Shown piece after piece: positions 28,076 to 37,964 of a stretch of 64,000 nucleotides of DNA. The translations under genes and the position numbers were made by a program. Positions within the stretch are counted from its first letter, which is position 1, and each line of letters opens with the position of its first letter. The notes under the pieces were generated by a model. That model was given only the letters and a program-made list of their open reading frames with translations. It ran no database searches and was not told where the DNA came from. The DNA lies in assembly GCF_030409805.1 (NCBI RefSeq), contig NZ_JAUFQP010000007.1, forward strand, positions 310,001 through 374,000, given 5' to 3'. The DNA is from Algibacter miyuki (GTDB taxonomy: Bacteria; Bacteroidota; Bacteroidia; Flavobacteriales; Flavobacteriaceae).

Positions 28076-28356
28076 CTTTTTAATTTTAGTAACTTATACA
28101 AAATTAACATCTTGTATTCATATTTATAATGACATTTGTCATGTTTAACTTCTAAAACTTACAACACTGTAAATTGAATAAAAACTTTGAAGCCTTAAGT
28201 CCTAATTTCATAATACGTTGTGCTGTTTCTTTAGTATCGAAAAAACATTTATCCGTCCGACTTTTCATGTGTAAGCAATTTTCTCTATTTTGCCTATTCA
28301 TTTTAAAGTGGACTAAAAAAACCAGATTTTATAATTCATTTAAAAACTCAAAAATC

Positions 28357-28920
28357 ATGACAAAACACCGATGTGGCTGGTGCCAAGGCGATGCTTTATA
28401 CGAAGCCTATCACGATGAAGAATGGGGTGTTCCTGTTTTTGATGACGCTACTATTTTTGAATTTTTGATTCTAGAAACCTTTCAGGCTGGTTTAAGCTGG
28501 ATTACGATTTTACGAAAACGAGATAATTTCAGAAAAGCATTTGATCATTTCGATTATAAAAAAATTGCAACATACGACCAAAATAAAGAAGATAGCTTGT
28601 TGCAAGATGCCGGAATTGTTCGGAATAAACTAAAAGTAAAAGCTACGATTACCAATGCTCAAGCTTTTATAAAAATTCAGAAAGAATTTGGAAGTTTCAG
28701 TAAATATATTTGGGCTTTTGTAGATGGGAAACCTATTAAAAACAGCGTTGAGCTCTATAAAAATGCGCCACCAAATACCGCCATTAGCGATGCCTTGAGT
28801 AAAGATTTAAAAAAACGCGGATTTAAATTTGTGGGCAGTACTGTAGTTTATGCGCACATGCAAGCCACAGGTATGGTAAACGACCATGAAATAAATTGTT
28901 TTAGATATTCTGAAGTTTGA
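28357..28920 (+). CDS. tag: DNA-3-methyladenine glycosylase I
   Basis: 187 residues from the ATG at 28357 (MTKHRCGWCQGD). The open frame extends to a TTG at 28174, but those 61 codons do not resemble the family. Tag features are CGWC and the C-terminal HMQATGMVNDHEINCF, which supply the zinc-binding Cys/His residues, plus YHDEEWGVP and AGLSWITILRKRDNFRKAF of the helix-hairpin-helix glycosylase core. It excises 3-methyladenine from alkylated DNA. A near-consensus promoter box (TATTTTG, about 28286) supports the later start. Confidence 0.93.
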   Translation: MTKHRCGWCQGDALYEAYHDEEWGVPVFDDATIFEFLILETFQAGLSWITILRKRDNFRKAFDHFDYKKIATYDQNKEDSLLQDAGIVRNKLKVKATITNAQAFIKIQKEFGSFSKYIWAFVDGKPIKNSVELYKNAPPNTAISDALSKDLKKRGFKFVGSTVVYAHMQATGMVNDHEINCFRYSEV

Positions 28921-28974
28921 TTTTTAGCGACGTTTTATCATTATTTCAAAAAAAATAATCACCAAATATTAAGC

Positions 28975-29637
28975 ATGCCTTGTATTAAAAAATTCATCTT
29001 TCTAATCTTTGTTTTTATAAATGTAGAAGCTTTTTCTCAAGAACATTTTAGTGCTTTAGGCGAAACTACATTTGCTCTAAATAAAAAGGTTTCCAATACC
29101 TACGGAACCAACTTTACGTTACGATCTCGATATTTTCTATACAACAATCATCAATTAAAATACAACCAACAACAAATAGACCTCTATCATTTTTCAAAAT
29201 TAAAACTGGATAAACGTCACAACGTAAGTTTAGGCATTTATTACAGAACGCGAGACCCGTTTGATAGTGGCAGCAATGAATTGCGCTTTACCCAACAGTT
29301 TACCTACAACAAGCGAAAATTAAACATGCGTTTTAGCCATAGATTCCGGGCTGAACAACGCGTTTTGAAAAATAAAACCATTTTTAGAGAACGCTATCGT
29401 TTTTCATTAAACCTTCCTATAAATTCGGACACCTATTTTATTGGAGCACTCGAAGGATTATTAAGTTTAAGCAAGCAAACAACTTTTGAACTAGACGAAC
29501 GTTCTACCGCACAATTTGGCTGGCTATTGAGTGATACATTAAAACTACAAGCCGGTTTAGAGCATCGGTTAGAAGCTTTTAACATAGAACCTCAACATTA
29601 TGTATTTGTTCTAACAAAAGCAGTTATAAGTATTTAA
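28975..29637 (+). CDS. DUF2490 outer-membrane protein
   Basis: 220 residues with a signal peptide (cleavage after AFSQ, about residue 22). The rest is alternating amphipathic strands with many Arg/Tyr/Phe (TLRSRYFLY, NVSLGIYYRTRD, RFSHRFRAEQRVL), matching DUF2490, predicted small outer-membrane beta-barrels common in Bacteroidetes. It is transcribed alone between tag and the histidine kinase. The function is unknown. Confidence 0.8.
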   Translation: MPCIKKFIFLIFVFINVEAFSQEHFSALGETTFALNKKVSNTYGTNFTLRSRYFLYNNHQLKYNQQQIDLYHFSKLKLDKRHNVSLGIYYRTRDPFDSGSNELRFTQQFTYNKRKLNMRFSHRFRAEQRVLKNKTIFRERYRFSLNLPINSDTYFIGALEGLLSLSKQTTFELDERSTAQFGWLLSDTLKLQAGLEHRLEAFNIEPQHYVFVLTKAVISI

Positions 29638-29694
29638 AAATGCAACATATCGAGATTGAACGGCCATATGTTAAAATGCAAAACATAATGCTAA

Positions 29695-31608
29695 ATGTCT
29701 TCATTAAACATTGATGATTGCTTATTTTTACCTTTCCAAATAACATCCCTTTTTGCTTTTATGATTGTAAAAAACAAAAGCCTTTGGCAACTTGGCTTTG
29801 TCATTTCTTTTTTAATACTTTTTTCTACCTGTTCTAGGCAAGATACCGTTCGCCCTAATATAAAAACACGTCTAGCAGCATTAGATTCGTTAACGCTAAC
29901 ACAGGCGGAGCAATCTATTTTAGAACTAGACAGCCTATTGCTAAGCGACAATTTAACCACTTTAGAGCACGCCATGTTATTGTTTAACAAAGGGGAAGCC
30001 TTATACCTAAACGATAAATTTCACGAAGCATTTAACGTCCACTTAAAATCGTATGCATTATTTTCTGAATTAAAAGATAAATACAACGAAAGCCGCTCAT
30101 TAATCACATTAAGTGGCGCCGCACTGCACATGGGCGATATAGAAACCGCCCAAGTTTATGCCTTGAAAGCATTGCATTTAGCACAATTAATAGACGATAA
30201 ACGCATAGAAGGAAAAGCTTATAATCAACTTTTTAGTTTACATTTTAAATTAAAAGATTACGACAAAGCTTTAACTTATATACAAGCTACAGACAGCTTA
30301 TATTCTAAAACCACAGACACAGCCTCCATTATTGCGATAAAAAGTAATACCGCTAGTGTTTACTTACAGCTTAAGCAATATAATAAAGCGTTATCAAGCT
30401 ACTCAGAAGCGATGTCGTTAAGTCAATCTAAAGGCGACCCAAAAGCATTGGTTAGCATTTTGAATAATATTGGTTACACGTATATAGAAGCCGGAGAATA
30501 TAGCATGGCCGAACAATTTTTAAGAGGTGCCATACAGTTAAATAAAAACATAAACGTCATTAACGCGGCACCTTATAAGGGTCTGGGTTCTATGTTTTTA
30601 TTGACCACTAAAAATGATTCGGCTCAGGTTAATTACATAAAAGCCTTAGACATCTATGTGGCTAACAACAACATAAAAGAAGAAATAGAAGTACGCGATA
30701 AACTTATTGCAATAGCCATTATGGCTGGCGATTACGTAAAAGCACTAAACAATCAAATAGTTAGAGATAGCTTACAATTAAACGTAAGTCGCATTGAAAA
30801 AACCAGACTTTTAGATTTTGCTAATGTTAATTATGAAGTCAAGCAAAAGGAAACAGAAATTAATCATCAAAAAGAAATCAACTCTAGAAATCAATGGCTT
30901 TTAATTAGCACAGTACTGTTGGCAGTAATGCTGCTTATAGCAACCGCATTTTATATTTACAACACCAAGTTACGCGCCGCTAACAAAGCCTCTAAATTAG
31001 AGCAAAGCTTGTTGCGTGTGCAAATGAATCCGCATTTTATATTCAACACCTTAGCGGCCATTCAAAATGTAACTTTAGAAGGAAACCCTATAAAATCGTC
31101 TAATTATATTGCGAAATTCTCTAAACTTATTCGTCAGAATTTCGACTATGTTAGAAAAGAATCTATTACACTAGATAAAGAAATCGCCATGATTTCCAAC
31201 TATATAGAAACCCAACAATTACGCTTTAACAACATATTTACCTATACCATCGACATTGAAGATTCCATTGCTGTTTCTGAAATAAAAGTCCCTCCAATGT
31301 TATTACAGCCTTTTGTTGAAAACGCCATAGAATACGGCTTAAAAGAGAAAAAAGAAGGAGGCAATCTACTTTTAAGGATTGAAAAAGAACAGCAAGGTTT
31401 ATTGTTTATAATTCAAGACAATGGCATAGGCCGATCAGCAAAAGCTAAACAAGAAAAAATAACCGAAGAGTTACACGCCACATCCATTTTTATAGAACGC
31501 TTAAAAATGAGAAAAAAGGGTGAAGAGAAAACATTTACTATCGAAGATTTATTTGACGATAACAATAATCCAATTGGCACAAAAGTGTTTTTTAAATTAA
31601 AATTCTAA
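29695..31608 (+). CDS. TPR-containing LytS-type sensor histidine kinase
   Basis: 637 residues from the ATG at 29695. An ATG at 29761 would leave a clean lipoprotein-like signal (MIVKNKSLWQLGF...LFSTC) and may be the real start. The periplasmic part (about 75-370) holds several TPR-like helical pairs. A transmembrane helix lies near 400-425. The His_kinase domain has QMNPHFIFNTL with phospho-His near 446, and the HATPase has LLQPFVENAIEYGLKEK and DNGIGR. The stop overlaps the LytTR regulator start by one base: a coupled two-component pair. The signal sensed by the TPR domain is unknown. Confidence 0.88.
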   Translation: MSSLNIDDCLFLPFQITSLFAFMIVKNKSLWQLGFVISFLILFSTCSRQDTVRPNIKTRLAALDSLTLTQAEQSILELDSLLLSDNLTTLEHAMLLFNKGEALYLNDKFHEAFNVHLKSYALFSELKDKYNESRSLITLSGAALHMGDIETAQVYALKALHLAQLIDDKRIEGKAYNQLFSLHFKLKDYDKALTYIQATDSLYSKTTDTASIIAIKSNTASVYLQLKQYNKALSSYSEAMSLSQSKGDPKALVSILNNIGYTYIEAGEYSMAEQFLRGAIQLNKNINVINAAPYKGLGSMFLLTTKNDSAQVNYIKALDIYVANNNIKEEIEVRDKLIAIAIMAGDYVKALNNQIVRDSLQLNVSRIEKTRLLDFANVNYEVKQKETEINHQKEINSRNQWLLISTVLLAVMLLIATAFYIYNTKLRAANKASKLEQSLLRVQMNPHFIFNTLAAIQNVTLEGNPIKSSNYIAKFSKLIRQNFDYVRKESITLDKEIAMISNYIETQQLRFNNIFTYTIDIEDSIAVSEIKVPPMLLQPFVENAIEYGLKEKKEGGNLLLRIEKEQQGLLFIIQDNGIGRSAKAKQEKITEELHATSIFIERLKMRKKGEEKTFTIEDLFDDNNNPIGTKVFFKLKF

Positions 31609-32345
31609 TGATAAAAGCCGTTATAATAGAAGATGAGTTTAACGCTCTAAACACCTTAGACAAACTAATTAAATACACTCAAAAAGATATTGAGGTTATT
31701 GCTAAAATAGATAATATTATAGAAGCAACCGCCTTTTTAAAAAGCCAAACTCCAGACTTGGTTTTTATGGATATTGAGCTTATTGGTGGTAATGCGTTTC
31801 AAATTTTAGAAGCTTTAGATAGTATTGCTTTCAAAATAATTTTCACAACAGCTTATGATGAATTTGCTATAAAAGCCATTAAATTCGACACTATTGATTA
31901 CTTGTTAAAACCTATAGATTCTGAGGAATTATCAGAATGTATAGACCGTTTTAGAGTCGCCTTTAAAAAAGAACAAGTCTATAAAAGTGCCATCGATAAG
32001 GTTTCAGAAATTAACGAAAAAGAAAACCAAAAAACATTATTAATTAAAACGGCAGACGCACAATATTTTCTTCAAATAAAAGATATTATCCGTTGCCAGT
32101 CCGATGGTAGTTACACCATTTTCCATACAGTCGATAAAAAAATAATGAGTGCGCGCAATCTAAAATACTACGAAAACATTTTAAGCGAACACACTTTTGT
32201 TAGAGTACACCAATCGCATTTAGTTAACATTAAATACATAAAAACGATTAGCGCGAATAACACAGTATCCCTAACAAACGATGAAAAAATACCAGTGGCA
32301 ACTCGAAAAAAATCGTACCTAAAACAACTTTTAGACACTTTATAA
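31608..32345 (+). CDS. LytTR-family response regulator
   Basis: 245 residues. The receiver domain (1-120) has the acidic pair EDE near 9-11, phospho-acceptor D54 in LVFMDIEL, and Lys in YLLKPID. A LytTR DNA-binding domain spans about 142-245 (KDIIRCQSDGSYTIF; FVRVHQSHLVNIKYIK). It is translationally coupled to the TPR kinase (one-base overlap). The 106 bases downstream contain a candidate promoter and then the uncharacterised cluster, which may be a target (inference). Confidence 0.92.
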   Translation: MIKAVIIEDEFNALNTLDKLIKYTQKDIEVIAKIDNIIEATAFLKSQTPDLVFMDIELIGGNAFQILEALDSIAFKIIFTTAYDEFAIKAIKFDTIDYLLKPIDSEELSECIDRFRVAFKKEQVYKSAIDKVSEINEKENQKTLLIKTADAQYFLQIKDIIRCQSDGSYTIFHTVDKKIMSARNLKYYENILSEHTFVRVHQSHLVNIKYIKTISANNTVSLTNDEKIPVATRKKSYLKQLLDTL

Positions 32346-32408
32346 GCGCAAATACAAAACGAAAAGTGGCACATGTGAAACGGTTTTAAAATCATCCTAT
32401 CCAAGTCT

Positions 32409-32416
32409 TAGTTTTG
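32409..32416 (+). promoter_or_regulatory. -7 box upstream of the uncharacterised cluster
   Basis: TAGTTTTG matches TAnnTTTG and ends 35 bases before the first gene. The five genes that follow are spaced 7-45 bases apart with no terminator, so this could drive all of them. Confidence 0.45.
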
Positions 32417-32451
32417 AGGTAAATAAACAAATAACCTTAAAATTTAAAATC

Positions 32452-32862
32452 ATGGGATTAAAAGAAAACCGATTTACTAAAACTTTTCAAGAGGAACAAT
32501 TTCCACAATTAAAAGCTCAAATAATTGAAGCGGCAGGTTTCGATGTACCTTTAAATATTGAGTGGACAAACTTATTCGAAGATCGTTTTTTACACCTTTA
32601 CAACGACTCTTACCCAAAAATTTATTTCTTACCATTTATTGAAGCTTTCACATCTATTACAGCAGACGATATGGGCAAAGAAGCGCTTGCTGAAAGTTTA
32701 AAAGAAATACACATAACAAATACTCAAGATCACCACAATCCTAGCAATGCCTTTAGTTTTTCTAACGGAATTTTAACTCTAGATCATAGCCCGATTCTTA
32801 ACGCGGAAGATGTTGATAGACGCACCAAAGTGCTCGTTGATTTATTAGAAAACAATTTATAA
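32452..32862 (+). CDS. Uncharacterised small cytosolic protein, paralogue of the N-terminus of the 34594 gene product
   Basis: 136 residues, no signal peptide or membrane helix. It begins MGLKENRFTKTFQEEQFP and aligns over its whole length with the first ~135 residues of the product of 34594-35766 (shared YPKIYFLPFIEAF-type block, EDRF, LxHSPxxNAxxVxxRT). I recognise no named domain. It is the first gene of a five-gene plus-strand cluster after the LytTR pair; 43 bases separate it from the lipoprotein ATG. Duplication within one operon suggests two subunits of one assembly (inference). Confidence 0.7.
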   Translation: MGLKENRFTKTFQEEQFPQLKAQIIEAAGFDVPLNIEWTNLFEDRFLHLYNDSYPKIYFLPFIEAFTSITADDMGKEALAESLKEIHITNTQDHHNPSNAFSFSNGILTLDHSPILNAEDVDRRTKVLVDLLENNL

Positions 32863-32905
32863 GTAAGCGTTTTAATCTGTTGTTTAATTGGTAATAGTTA
32901 TTGAT

Positions 32906-33877
32906 ATGTATAGATCTATTTTTTATATTTTTTTAATCGGATTGTTTTTATCGCTTGTTAGTTGCGGTGTTTCTGGAATGGAAGCAAAAAGGGGGCTCAT
33001 AGCTTATTTAAAAATGCATCATAAAGATAAGTATGAGGTGCTTACTTTTAAAAGAGACTTTAATACCGCTAGTATGAATCCTGATTTATTTTGGGTAGAA
33101 TTAAAACTTATTGAAAACCCCGACATCATTATAAATTTTGACTGGAATGCAAAAAATAATGCGCTATACATATCGTCTCATAACAGACAAGACTTAAGCA
33201 TTGAATCGTTAACACGGTACCAACAACAAGAAATTGTATTAAGAAAAGAAATTCATGAAACCTTAGACAACGATGTTTTGGATATGGAAGTCAATGTGTT
33301 TAACCACACCATTAGCATCACTTTAGAGAAAGAGCCAACGCAAAAAGATTTTGAAACTTTTTCCAGAAAAATTGATTACGTTTTACAAGATTACCCAGAC
33401 ACTTGGACTCAAGAAGCTCATGTCGATTTTAAATTGAAAGACGAAAAGAAAGGTTTTTACGAACTTATAGTAAAGCCTAACACCTATAACGACAGCAAGC
33501 TTACGTTTAGATATTACCCAAACGCTATTGTTGCAAATAATTCGGGATCTAAAAAAGCAGAACATATTGACCATGTGATACAACAGGAATTCTCGAAACC
33601 CGAATCTCCTATTTATTTAAAGCACATTTGGGTAAATCAATCTAAATTAAACAGCTTTTATATTGCTTTTGAAAATCATGAACCTTTAAAAAGACCCGAA
33701 AAAAACAAACATTTAACGGAAGCTGTGGGCGTGTATATGGTAGAAATGAACTACCCCAACCTAGACATGAAAACTTTAACCTATTATGACTACAAAACCA
33801 CACCTAGAGACGGCATCTTTCTTTATCTCATAGATCAGTTACCAGAAGATTACCAATACCTCATAGAGCACCCTTAA
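32906..33877 (+). CDS. Uncharacterised lipoprotein
   Basis: I use the ATG at 32906 (MYRSIFYIFLIGLF) rather than an in-frame TTG 18 bases earlier. The 323-residue product has a lipoprotein signal with lipid Cys near residue 20 (LSLVSCGVSG). The mature part is mixed alpha/beta with many aromatic and acidic residues (FDWNAKNNALYISSHN, DYPDTWTQEAHVDF) and no family I recognise. It ends 14 bases before the next gene. It is the only cluster member with a clear export signal, so it may give the system an envelope component. Confidence 0.7.
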   Translation: MYRSIFYIFLIGLFLSLVSCGVSGMEAKRGLIAYLKMHHKDKYEVLTFKRDFNTASMNPDLFWVELKLIENPDIIINFDWNAKNNALYISSHNRQDLSIESLTRYQQQEIVLRKEIHETLDNDVLDMEVNVFNHTISITLEKEPTQKDFETFSRKIDYVLQDYPDTWTQEAHVDFKLKDEKKGFYELIVKPNTYNDSKLTFRYYPNAIVANNSGSKKAEHIDHVIQQEFSKPESPIYLKHIWVNQSKLNSFYIAFENHEPLKRPEKNKHLTEAVGVYMVEMNYPNLDMKTLTYYDYKTTPRDGIFLYLIDQLPEDYQYLIEHP

Positions 33878-33891
33878 CACCCGCTTACATC

Positions 33892-34548
33892 ATGGAAAAA
33901 ACATCATATTATAAAGCGTTTGTAGCCCAAACGCCAGAGGATATCCTACAATCTATTTTAAAAAAAGAAGAACCTATTTTAATAGCTATTTCTTTAACCA
34001 ACGGCAGTTACATGGAAGGTACTCTCCTAGATATTTCAGCAGAAAACAAGCATCACAAATCGGTTTGTATGCTTTCAGAAAACGAGAACGTATCATTTTT
34101 CAATATACACGACATTACACTTGTAACGGTAAAACAACCTAAAAAAATGGTTGTAGAATTATCTAAAGGCGCTATCAGTAGGCCTTTATCATCTGCCAAT
34201 CAAGAACTGACGGCTTTACAACTAAAACGCTGGATAAACAATGAAAAATTGCTATTAGGCAGTCATATAAACGATTTCAAAATAGACACACTCGATTTAA
34301 AAGTATTGAATAATAGATTGAATATTCAAGACGTGTTTGCTGCATTACAAACCGCTAAAAATAACATCATTATAGATGCCTTGGGTCAGGAAGCTTATCA
34401 AACCATTGACACCATTGTCTTGGAACAAGCCGAAACACTTCAACTTAAAATTCAATCTAAAACATTAACCATATCTCTAGCTATAGATAAGGCGCTGCCT
34501 GAAAATCTAGCGCACACTTTAGAAGAAAAACTTCTTCAAATATTATAA
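33892..34548 (+). CDS. Uncharacterised protein with possible LSm-like N-terminal segment
   Basis: 218 residues, cytosolic. Residues about 28-80 (PILIAISLTNGSYMEGTLLD, then VSFFNIHDITLVTV) have the strand pattern of an Sm/LSm fold: a hydrophobic strand, NG turn, EGxLxD, and a final I..I.LVTV strand. This is my reading by eye, not a profile match. The C-terminal half (about 100-218) is helical/mixed and unrecognised. It sits 14 bases after the lipoprotein and 45 bases before the DUF6882-like gene. Confidence 0.6.
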   Translation: MEKTSYYKAFVAQTPEDILQSILKKEEPILIAISLTNGSYMEGTLLDISAENKHHKSVCMLSENENVSFFNIHDITLVTVKQPKKMVVELSKGAISRPLSSANQELTALQLKRWINNEKLLLGSHINDFKIDTLDLKVLNNRLNIQDVFAALQTAKNNIIIDALGQEAYQTIDTIVLEQAETLQLKIQSKTLTISLAIDKALPENLAHTLEEKLLQIL

Positions 34549-34593
34549 AAAATTCACTCAAAAAAATAAATACAATCTTAAAAAAACAATATT

Positions 34594-35766
34594 ATGGGAC
34601 TTAAAGAAAAAAGAATTATCCAAGCCTTTCAAAACGACCTATTTCCAGCATTAGAAACTGAAATTAACACCGCTGCAGGTTACACTGTACCTTTAAATAT
34701 TTCATGGAATACCCTTATGGAAGATCGCTTTTCTCACATTTACAACGATACGTTTCCAAAAATATATTTTCTGCCATTAATAGAAGCTTTTAAAGCTATT
34801 TGTGTAGATTCTATGGGTGTTGAACTTTTACAAACCGGATTAAAAGAAGTGGTTATTGTAAACGAAAAAAACGAGCATAATATAGAACGTGCCATTACTT
34901 TTGAATCTGGTGTACTAAAAATAAACCACAGCCCAGTTATTAATGCCGATAAGGTTGAAGATAGAACTGCACGTATCATTTCTTTATTAGAAGACAAATT
35001 AGAAGAATTTGCTGAAGGCACTCCTGAAACAACAAGTACAGAAACTTCTGCTCCTACAACCGAAAAGAAACAAGAAGCAACAGAAACTCCCAACAAAATG
35101 ACAATACAAGAATTGTATAATCAATCGCTTGTGCTTTCTCTAGAAAAGCAAGAGATTTTTAGCGAAATGGTAGAAGGTTTAGGCTGGAGTTGTGATATGC
35201 TAGAAGGTAAATTAACTTATGGTGACGATCAAGTTTTTGACATTCAAGTGTTAGGAACTTACGCGGAAAATGAAAAAAGCTGGTTATGGGCATGGGCAAA
35301 TACCCAAAGTGGCATTCCTGAAAAATTTACACAAACCGCTTTAGCCATGAAAGCTATTGGTGAAGCTTACCAAATAAACGATTTAACAAACCCTAAAACA
35401 GAATTAAACTCCGATCCTGGCGCTTATTTTTCAACCATAGCATCTTCTATGCTAAAAGAGAGTTGCTACGTACCATTAACTTTTAAAGGCTTAACCGTTT
35501 ATGTTACCGTTACTTCTCAAGAAGCAGACAGCAAAGCCCGAACTATTCCGGCTTTAATTTGCTCTCACTTTACCCAAGCTGCTGCAAATTATAAATTTCC
35601 ACATAAATACAGCTTATACTTTTACTTAAAAGCAAAAGGTTACCAAGTAGAACTTCCTGGCAACAATATTATCGCTAAAAAGGATGACGATCAAATTCTA
35701 GGCATTTTCGATTTAAAAGGAAGACTTATGAAAATTTCTAATTCAAAACTAACAGTTCAAGCTTAA
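34594..35766 (+). CDS. Two-domain protein: paralogous N-terminal domain plus DUF6882-like domain
   Basis: 390 residues. Residues 1-135 are a diverged copy of the product of 32452-32862. A Thr/Glu-rich linker (about 140-165, with ETTSTETSAPTTEKK) follows. The C-terminal domain (about 170-390) has SWLWAWANTQSGIPEKF, the Trp-rich pattern I associate with DUF6882. There is no signal peptide. The gene starts 45 bases after its neighbour and ends 7 bases before the M48 gene. The fusion ties the paralogous domain to a larger cytosolic module. Function is unknown. Confidence 0.7.
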   Translation: MGLKEKRIIQAFQNDLFPALETEINTAAGYTVPLNISWNTLMEDRFSHIYNDTFPKIYFLPLIEAFKAICVDSMGVELLQTGLKEVVIVNEKNEHNIERAITFESGVLKINHSPVINADKVEDRTARIISLLEDKLEEFAEGTPETTSTETSAPTTEKKQEATETPNKMTIQELYNQSLVLSLEKQEIFSEMVEGLGWSCDMLEGKLTYGDDQVFDIQVLGTYAENEKSWLWAWANTQSGIPEKFTQTALAMKAIGEAYQINDLTNPKTELNSDPGAYFSTIASSMLKESCYVPLTFKGLTVYVTVTSQEADSKARTIPALICSHFTQAAANYKFPHKYSLYFYLKAKGYQVELPGNNIIAKKDDDQILGIFDLKGRLMKISNSKLTVQA

Positions 35767-35773
35767 AAATATT

Positions 35774-37267
35774 ATGGCATATACATCAGAAACTATTTCA
35801 GACTTAGAAAAAGAACATCAAGCAGCTTTAAACACAGCTCAAGAAAAAATGATGGCAGATTTAAATGAAGCACAAACTTCAGGAAACCACATCAAAATAC
35901 AAGTAGCAAGTATTGATTTTCAAAATATAACTACAGAGTTAGCTATAGATTACACCAAACGTATTGAAGAAATTAACGCTTTAAATCATAAAGCTGTAGC
36001 CGATAATGAACCCCAAATCTACACTAACAATCGTGCAAATATCGATTTAAACCTTTTGGTTTATGATGGTGATAGAGACTTTGTTATTGAATTTCAAAAA
36101 GACGAATTAATACAAGACACCTTAAAGCGTGTAAACGAAAACAGCGGTAAGTTTAAGTCTAGAAAACACTTGTTAAAATCAAGCTTAAGACTTACAAAAA
36201 CCCTAGCACCAATGCTTCATGAAATAGGGGAGCATTGCAAAAACACACTAAAATTAAAAGCTGATATTGAGTTTTTTGTATACCAAAGTGACATCTTTAA
36301 CGCATCGTGCTATCCGCCAGACGACAATAAATTATACATTATTTTATCTTCAGGAATTTTAGAACGTTTTTCTAAGGAAGAATTAATTTTTGTTGTTGGT
36401 CATGAAATCGGACATGTACTTTTCGAACATTTTGATTATCCAGTTCGTCAAATTTTAGATGAAGGAGAGAACCATCTTGCACCTATACACGCCATGAAAT
36501 TATATGCATGGAATAGAAATGCTGAAATAAGCGCAGATAGAGCCGGCTTATTATGCTGTCAAGATTTTGAAGCTGTAGGCCGTACATTCTTCAAACTGTC
36601 TTCGGGAGTTACTACAGATTCTTTAGATTTTCAACTTAATGCTTACATCGAACAATTTGTAGATTTAGAAGAAGTTTTAAACGATGCCAACCACGATCCT
36701 TCCGATTGGTATAGCAGTCATCCATTTAGCCCGCTAAGAATTAAAGCTTTAGAACTTTTTAATAAAAGTGAGACCTATGCTGAATTTAACACAAATATTA
36801 CCGGTGAAATTACGGAAGAAGCTATGGAGGTTGAAATTAAGCGCATTATGTCGTTAATGGAACCAGAAAACCTAGATGATGAAAGTGAACATTCTGAAAA
36901 AATTCAACGATTAATGTTCTTAGGTGGATACCTTATTTCGAATGCAGATGGCGTTGTTGACGATTCTGAAATACAAGCATTAAGTAGTATTGTTGCTCCT
37001 AAAATTTTCGCCAATTGTATGATGACTATCAAAGGTCTTACAGAAAATGAAATGATAGACGAAGTACAGCAACTAACCAAAGATTTGGATATTGTATTAT
37101 CGGTGATGCAAAAACTAAATATCCTTAGAGATTTATCTATTATATCCTATGCCGATGGTGAAATAGATGATAGCGAAATTAACGTTTTACACAATTTGGC
37201 AAGGCTATTATATATTAACACCGATTTTATAGATCGTGTTATTAGCGATGCTCAAGGTGTGAATTAA
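35774..37267 (+). CDS. M48-family metallopeptidase fused to TerB-like domain
   Basis: 497 residues without transmembrane helices, unlike HtpX/Ste24 M48 enzymes. The peptidase core has HEIGHVLFEH near 211 (zinc ligands and catalytic Glu) and the third ligand in NAEISADRAG near 251. Residues about 375-495 resemble a TerB-like helical domain with two DG(V/E)(V/I)DDSEI repeats (ADGVVDDSEIQAL; ADGEIDDSEINVL), acidic loops that could bind metal. The first ~130 residues are a charged coiled region. It is the last gene of the cluster, with a terminator directly after. It could process a partner from the same operon. Confidence 0.85.
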   Translation: MAYTSETISDLEKEHQAALNTAQEKMMADLNEAQTSGNHIKIQVASIDFQNITTELAIDYTKRIEEINALNHKAVADNEPQIYTNNRANIDLNLLVYDGDRDFVIEFQKDELIQDTLKRVNENSGKFKSRKHLLKSSLRLTKTLAPMLHEIGEHCKNTLKLKADIEFFVYQSDIFNASCYPPDDNKLYIILSSGILERFSKEELIFVVGHEIGHVLFEHFDYPVRQILDEGENHLAPIHAMKLYAWNRNAEISADRAGLLCCQDFEAVGRTFFKLSSGVTTDSLDFQLNAYIEQFVDLEEVLNDANHDPSDWYSSHPFSPLRIKALELFNKSETYAEFNTNITGEITEEAMEVEIKRIMSLMEPENLDDESEHSEKIQRLMFLGGYLISNADGVVDDSEIQALSSIVAPKIFANCMMTIKGLTENEMIDEVQQLTKDLDIVLSVMQKLNILRDLSIISYADGEIDDSEINVLHNLARLLYINTDFIDRVISDAQGVN

Positions 37268-37291: not shown

Positions 37292-37330
37292 AAAGCTCAG
37301 GGTGGATTCAATCTTGAGCTTTTCTTTTTT
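37292..37330 (+). terminator. Terminator of the uncharacterised cluster
   Basis: Stem AAAGCTCA/TGAGCTTT with a 15-base loop, followed by TTCTTTTTT on the plus strand, 25 bases past the M48-TerB stop. Confidence 0.8.
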
Positions 37331-37340
37331 AATTTAATCA

Positions 37341-37964
37341 TTACAGATAACTTAAAAACACCTCTCGATCAACCTCTTCGGCACCCAAACTTTCTAAATG
37401 ATTGGTATACACCTGGCAATCAATTAATCTATAATTTGTATTCTGAATAAACGTAATAAATCCCACTTTACTCGCGTTACTTTCTTTAGTAAACATACTT
37501 TCTCCACAAAACACGCCGTTATTTAAATCTACGCCGTAAAGTCCGGCAACTAAAACATCATTTCGCCACACCTCTACAGATTTTGCATAACCTAATTCAT
37601 GTAATTTTACATAAGCATCTATCATCCCTTCCGTAATCCAAGTTCCGGCTTGTCCTTGACGTTTCATTTTTGAGCACTCGGTAATAACGCTTCTAAAATC
37701 TTTGTTTATGGTGACTTCAAAATCAGTATTCCTTAAAACTTGACGCATACTTTTTGAAACTTTCAATTGCTTCGGAAATAAAACAAATCGTGGATCGGGA
37801 GACCACCATACAATAGGTTCATCATCATCAAACCAAGGAAAAATACCGGATTGATATGCGAGCAACAAGCGTTCGGTCTCCAAACCACCTCCAATGGCCA
37901 ATACACCTTCGGGGGATGCTTCCGAGACATCGGGAAATACGATTTCGTTTGTTAAATATTGCAT
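37341..37964 (-). CDS. aat: Leucyl/phenylalanyl-tRNA--protein transferase
   Basis: 207 residues matching Aat throughout: FPDVSEASPEGVLAIGGGL, YQSGIFPWF, WWSPDPRFVLFP and GVFCGESMFTKESNASKV. It transfers Leu or Phe from aminoacyl-tRNA to N-terminal Arg/Lys, marking proteins for ClpS-ClpAP degradation in the N-degron pathway. Cytosolic. It converges on the M48-TerB gene and shares the short gap with that gene's terminator. Confidence 0.95.
   Translation of the reverse strand: MQYLTNEIVFPDVSEASPEGVLAIGGGLETERLLLAYQSGIFPWFDDDEPIVWWSPDPRFVLFPKQLKVSKSMRQVLRNTDFEVTINKDFRSVITECSKMKRQGQAGTWITEGMIDAYVKLHELGYAKSVEVWRNDVLVAGLYGVDLNNGVFCGESMFTKESNASKVGFITFIQNTNYRLIDCQVYTNHLESLGAEEVDREVFLSYL

Follow-up and report, generated by a model that had tools for sequence, protein, structure and literature searches.

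The subject of this analysis is a compact gene cluster in a 64,000-nucleotide stretch of the genome of the marine bacterium Algibacter miyuki (assembly GCF_030409805.1, contig NZ_JAUFQP010000007.1, positions 310,001 to 374,000; this whole stretch is referred to as the window, and the parts of the unit all lie on its plus strand). Five open reading frames (ORFs), genes A to E, were confirmed at 32452-37267, with intergenic gaps of 43 bases (25 if B begins at an alternative TTG start at 32888), 14, 45 and 7 bases, exactly as an earlier note, made from the letters of the window, had placed them. The extent given in that note was too narrow. Judged from sequence, the unit comprises seven genes, because orthologues of the two genes immediately 5' of A (29695-32345), a TPR sensor histidine kinase (HK) and a response regulator (RR), adjoin it at 28 of 31 loci with a gene E. 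The cassette is built from known parts and one unnamed domain, and nothing of its kind is described in the family libraries and literature that we searched, as the earlier note had supposed.

The 31 loci were tabulated by tblastn (26 from a genome-collection scan with E, the window itself, and L075, L076, L077 and L090); they were picked by similarity to E, and the counts below therefore describe the company that E keeps and not the frequency of the other genes. Clustering of the genes around the 26 scanned loci revealed the upstream kinase and regulator. Over all 31 loci, E has A beside it in 29, HK, RR and the DUF6882 part of D in 28 each, and C in 27; the complete set HK-RR-A-C-D-E is present in 27, indicating that the neighbourhood, whose conservation the earlier note had proposed comparing, has been kept together far beyond chance. 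Gene B is optional (14 of the 31, four of them with a match of just 92-104 residues). An Aquimarina locus (L039) has A and D without C or the orthologous kinase, and carries another TPR-kinase/LytTR pair just downstream; a Zhouia locus (L040) is without C and D. BspA-type leucine-rich repeats (LRRs) are added in L041 and L042 and inserted in D in L038 and L046, and these LRRs, the lipoprotein and a DUF7691 protein are extras that vary by lineage and look like adapters.

The kinase (29695-31608, likely start 29761) matches Pfam TPR_12 and His_kinase at 70.4 bits each, and its layout by Pfam, hydropathy and motif is a lipobox-like N-terminus, TPRs, one strong membrane segment and then the kinase domain. 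The TPRs probably face the periplasm, because the N-terminus is lipobox-like and the membrane segment is located after them. The regulator (31608-32345) joins a receiver (Response_reg, 55.9 bits) to a LytTR DNA-binding domain (71.6 bits). Kinase and receiver-LytTR regulator are thus both over cut-off and adjacent, as in LytS/LytTR systems (PF06580 plus PF04397); the pair differs from those systems in its TPR sensor part and in its candidate targets, the A to E genes.

The region before A contains features that would suit such control. The earlier note had given the cluster one promoter box and one terminator. The better evidence for a promoter is conservation: TAGTTTTG at 32409-32416 is a copy of TAnnTTTG, the flavobacterial -7 consensus according to PMC9723704, and 24 of 26 loci have such a box 26-38 bases 5' of the gene (the region examined was the gap before A, or before C in L041 and L042; L076 and L077 lie outside this sample). 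A terminator-like hairpin at 37292-37322 is on its own not beyond chance (five such sites in 7 kb, 4.2 expected). A sigma-70 scan gave no support for a promoter (20 sites, 28 expected). Upstream of the -7 box, two 13-base repeats (32348-32360 and 32369-32381, 21 bp apart) make up a candidate regulator site at 32348-32381, and two AAAC-like repeats with a period of 20-21 bp occupy this position in 14 of the 26 loci. By analogy, this period matches that of LytTR sites, which PMC6193735 describes as direct repeats of 9 bp separated by 11-13 bp. The whole promoter pattern has two matches in the genome, one of them at this locus, and a reversed control pattern has one. We infer with considerable confidence that the two-component pair controls genes A to E.

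Three of the five proteins share a domain. Gene A (32452-32862) encodes a single such domain and is predicted to be cytosolic, and its protein is 51% identical to residues 1-136 of D, in agreement with the duplicated small domain, and the longer paralogue fused to a DUF6882-like domain, of the earlier note. What that note missed, along with the HK/RR pair and the cassette behaviour, is a third copy inside C: a profile of A and the start of D matches the end of C (hhalign 84.7%) and six distant C-like proteins (96.3%), and because six controls (the start of C, two parts of B, DUF6882, TerB and the start of E) do not exceed 0.4%, we count one unnamed domain, the A domain, as present three times by profile comparison. 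Pfam returned nothing convincing in A, B or C; of the searches suggested in the earlier note, those with profiles recover known domains in D and E, and structure prediction a barrel in C. Gene B (32906-33877) is predicted to encode a lipoprotein, as the earlier note had it, with a lipobox (LVSC) at residues 17-20.

Gene C (33892-34548) is predicted to consist of an Sm/Hfq-like barrel (about residues 13-90) and the A-domain copy (about 108-218). With the predicted model (pLDDT 76.4), the top Foldseek rows for the barrel are Hfq (probability 1.00, best E-value 1.1e-3), and a VIA comparison with Hfq gives Z 9.5 over 68 residues at a root mean square deviation (rmsd) of 2.5. The LSm-like protein tentatively proposed in the earlier note is therefore plausible; C would share its barrel with Sm, LSm and Hfq proteins and differ from them in its larger size and added A domain, and a predicted fold by itself does not make C an RNA binder. 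Gene D (34594-35766) consists of an A domain, a low-confidence linker and DUF6882 (PF21813, residues 172-307, 97.6 bits against a cut-off of 23.9); it shares the last with that family, for which our literature searches found no paper that names it, and differs by the fusion. The AlphaFold model of D (pLDDT 84.8) has no PDB match at E-values up to 0.001, and its VIA matches, the best being 4l7a (Z 7.0, 128 residues across both domains, rmsd 3.9) and 1pwq, a metalloprotease domain (Z 5.9, 126 residues, model residues 4-147, rmsd 4.4), are too weak for naming a fold from the model. A whole-model search with D also brings up thirteen uncharacterised proteins of giant viruses at E-values up to 0.001, with the matching domain left unspecified. 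In two members of the genus these genes are broken: A by an in-frame stop at codon 5 (L021:4692-5102) and D by an in-frame stop inside its A domain (G002:C1:1862746-1863099), so that A and D may be dispensable in L021 and G002, respectively.

Gene E (35774-37267) carries the M48-TerB fusion that the earlier note had described, both profiles being above cut-off (M48, PF01435, 65.0 bits against 20.3, residues 146-327; TerB, PF05099, 44.3 bits against 24.4, residues 387-484). The zinc-protease core that it shares with M48 peptidases, HExxH...E (H210, E211, H214 and E251), and both acidic motifs of TerB are invariant in all 15 aligned E sequences, and hydropathy finds no membrane segment; E is accordingly predicted to be a soluble, probably cytosolic zinc protease with its active-site motif intact. 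Its NCBIfam matches to HtpX/LoiP are weak (best 20.8 bits against an equivalog cut-off of 245), and it differs from those proteins in having no membrane segment and in its TerB fusion. The closest named relative among those fetched is Algibacter lectus, whose E is 98% identical. Five Maribacter-type loci (L022-L024, L026 and L027) share 93-96% identity with the window in the M48 part. Between A. lectus and M. thermophilus the whole of E is 83.9% and RpoB 88.1% identical, from which E appears to be conserved about as well as RpoB, and overall not better. Candidate plasmid copies of E (eight records) were rejected, as they match the M48 region only, at no more than 34.1% identity.

The unit behaves as a cassette. 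In a congener (G003) the block from HK to E is absent as a whole, and the genes that flank it in the window (28975-29637 and aat, 37341-37964) are adjacent, with 8 bases between the ORFs; this single empty site is compatible with loss or gain alike. When 17 kb around the loci of Flammeovirga pacifica (L041) and Saccharicrinis aurantiacus (L042) were compared, the only similar DNA was one block, in two pieces of 84.0% and 81.4% identity, containing HK-RR-C-D-A-E, a BspA-LRR gene and a DUF7691 gene; because E is 92.6% identical between the two and RpoB only 66.6%, the block must have been transferred between these lineages. Within the genus, window positions 28339-37266 are 88.8% identical to G002 and G004 against 79.5-81.6% in the flanks, which hints at a recent exchange of the cassette together with two neighbouring genes; to G001 they are 79.7% identical, no better than the flanks. 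The distribution is patchy: with the genome itself included, E occurs in 6 of 299 Flavobacteriaceae and in 3 of 395 Bacteroidota, the third of the latter (G283) being a weak match of the M48 part only, at 29% identity, that we do not accept as the module. The A domain is found in 9 of 60 relatives and in 9 of 296 genomes of the phylum (own genome included in both), and DUF6882 elsewhere in 9 of 149 relatives.

Parts of the unit also occur outside it. A distant A gene is present in 11 further Bacteroidota loci (L055, L066-L074 and L082), and in seven of them (L066, L067, L069, L071, L072, L073 and L074) a C-like gene lies no more than about 1.2 kb away, in the absence of E. The C profile was trained on six of the seven, whose scores are therefore not independent; independent support comes from hhalign of the two C sets (98.9%, E-value 1.3e-17) and from the untrained locus L073 (1.8e-25). 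Up to 5 kb away there are TPR regulators in L067 (TPR-LuxR) and in L072 and L073 (kinases). At L073:5606-7212 the A-C pair is followed, directly after C, by a gene for an Hcp-like TssD, of the type VI secretion tube family. A tblastn search of plasmid records with D gave nine matches, one (Deinococcus) to the DUF6882 part and eight to the A domain (three haloarchaea, four alphaproteobacteria and one Bacteroidota), and in five non-Bacteroidota loci (L050-L054) none but A itself is among the matches listed down to an E-value of 0.001 when a C-like gene is sought. The alphaproteobacterial proteins L052:6923-7426 and L053:6920-7423 are stand-alone A domains with a signal peptide, judged by eye, and the haloarchaeal plasmid proteins L050:7001-7405 and L051:7001-7405 are stand-alone and have none; the A domain must therefore work in more than one compartment. 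The two loci with E alone (L032 and L045) and one A-C locus (L074) adjoin the same TonB-like gene, starting MEAKKNP, which possibly marks a shared insertion spot.

The best explanation of these observations, and one that we advance tentatively, is a horizontally moving, signal-inducible module for cytosolic proteolysis. The TPR kinase would sense an extracytoplasmic cue and phosphorylate the LytTR regulator, which would activate the conserved promoter before A and so raise the levels of A, C, D, the soluble zinc protease E and, where present, B. A, C and D would probably assemble through their common domain, with the Sm-like barrel of C as a ring-like or RNA-binding scaffold, and might guide substrates to E or restrain it; TerB might gate E by binding a metal or a partner. 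That E is the output of the module we consider fairly likely. We prefer this explanation because the six core genes occur together in 27 of the 31 E loci, because L039, which lacks the orthologous kinase, has another TPR-kinase/LytTR pair just downstream, and because the empty site in G003 and the block transfer between Flammeovirga and Saccharicrinis mark a cassette. The -7 box (24 of 26) and the LytTR-like repeat spacing (14 of 26) argue for it as well, as do one domain in three proteins together with the Sm/Hfq-like barrel in C, the HExxH...E and TerB motifs intact in 15 of 15 sequences, and the A-C pairing outside the module in 7 of 11 loci.

Several results weigh against this explanation. 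In L032 and L045 (2 of 31) E is the only gene of the module, and it therefore does not strictly require A, C and D. The -7 box is missing from L041 and L042, and the repeat pair of the window was equalled in 1106 of 5000 simple letter shuffles; the candidate site therefore rests on its conservation among related species. The lipobox and membrane calls come from motif and hydropathy only. The VIA list for C also holds a designed small barrel (Z 8.9) and a PafBC chain (Z 8.7), and the sequence of C has no significant Sm match (the best is Sm D1, E-value 0.83, in a range of 0.83-1.5).

An anti-phage or biological-conflict module, in which envelope attack would be sensed, the protease would be the effector and the LRR and lipoprotein parts would provide recognition, strikes us as improbable. 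The patchy distribution (6 of 299 Flavobacteriaceae), the transfer of the cassette, its added or inserted LRRs and the TssD beside C in L073 are what such a module might display, and a candidate defence protein, PDC-S06 (L041:14684-17137, E-value 6.4e-286), lies about 4 kb beyond the transferred block. Yet a PADLOC scan (version 2.0.0 of 2023) of the five proteins A to E found no family for any of them at E-values up to 1, and the M48 domain, with a conservation close to that of RpoB, differs in this from defence genes of the usual diversifying kind. A phage origin was considered and rejected: D has no relatives in phage records, and pattern searches found none of A or E in viral contigs. The 220 flank ORFs with a length of 100 aa or more were clustered and, after removal of over-long ones, gave 119 representatives. 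In these PADLOC found 16 families, each in one representative, a scan that cannot show absence of sharing between loci, since near-identical neighbours were merged. When 20 of the representatives were scanned one by one, 12 of the 16 families could be located, among them PycTM/2TM (L035), DpdF (L045), PDC-S06 (L041), mad3, mad8 and AriA (L040); DEDDh and PDC-S48 were not located among these 20. Three of those located besides PDC-S06 look generic, namely an HD/membrane protein (L035), a topoisomerase-like protein (L045) and an ABC ATPase (L040). A single candidate near one locus among 26 is no defence island, and the defence-like system that the earlier note listed among its readings is left unsupported.

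We give equally little credence to a post-transcriptional regulator in which C would be an RNA-binding Sm/Hfq-like protein with A and D as partners, E being merely co-induced. The Hfq-like barrel of the predicted model, the A-C pair that occurs without E in 7 of the 11 further loci and the loci with E alone are in its favour; against it, C lacks a significant Sm/Hfq match at the sequence level, and a barrel alone is no proof of RNA binding. Slightly less probable again is a metal or tellurite response akin to the Ter systems, in which TerB would sense metal for the protease: TerB is above cut-off and its acidic motifs are invariant, but in a Pfam search of all seven proteins of the unit TerB was the sole Ter domain. 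A toxin-antitoxin or addiction unit, which the earlier note also entertained and which small genes adjoining a hydrolase might suggest, is very improbable, as the effector is not always kept with a partner (L032 and L045 have E alone), the whole unit is missing from G003, and A in L021 and D in G002 are interrupted.

Under the inducible proteolysis module that we favour, five 'unknown' genes become a defined unit with a sensor, a regulator, a promoter, a protease and three domain-sharing proteins. A bolder and rather doubtful extension is that the unit represents a new class of regulated cytosolic protease, cassette-borne and answering to a dedicated envelope sensor, in which a TerB-gated M48 enzyme would act from a scaffold of three proteins linked by the unnamed domain, one of them with an Sm/Hfq-like barrel fused to it. 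A and C would then form the older core, and the protease and sensor would be later additions. If the proposed partnership is true, an Hfq-like barrel would be tied to regulated proteolysis; and since the A domain is also present in haloarchaea and alphaproteobacteria, solving it would aid annotation across bacteria and archaea.

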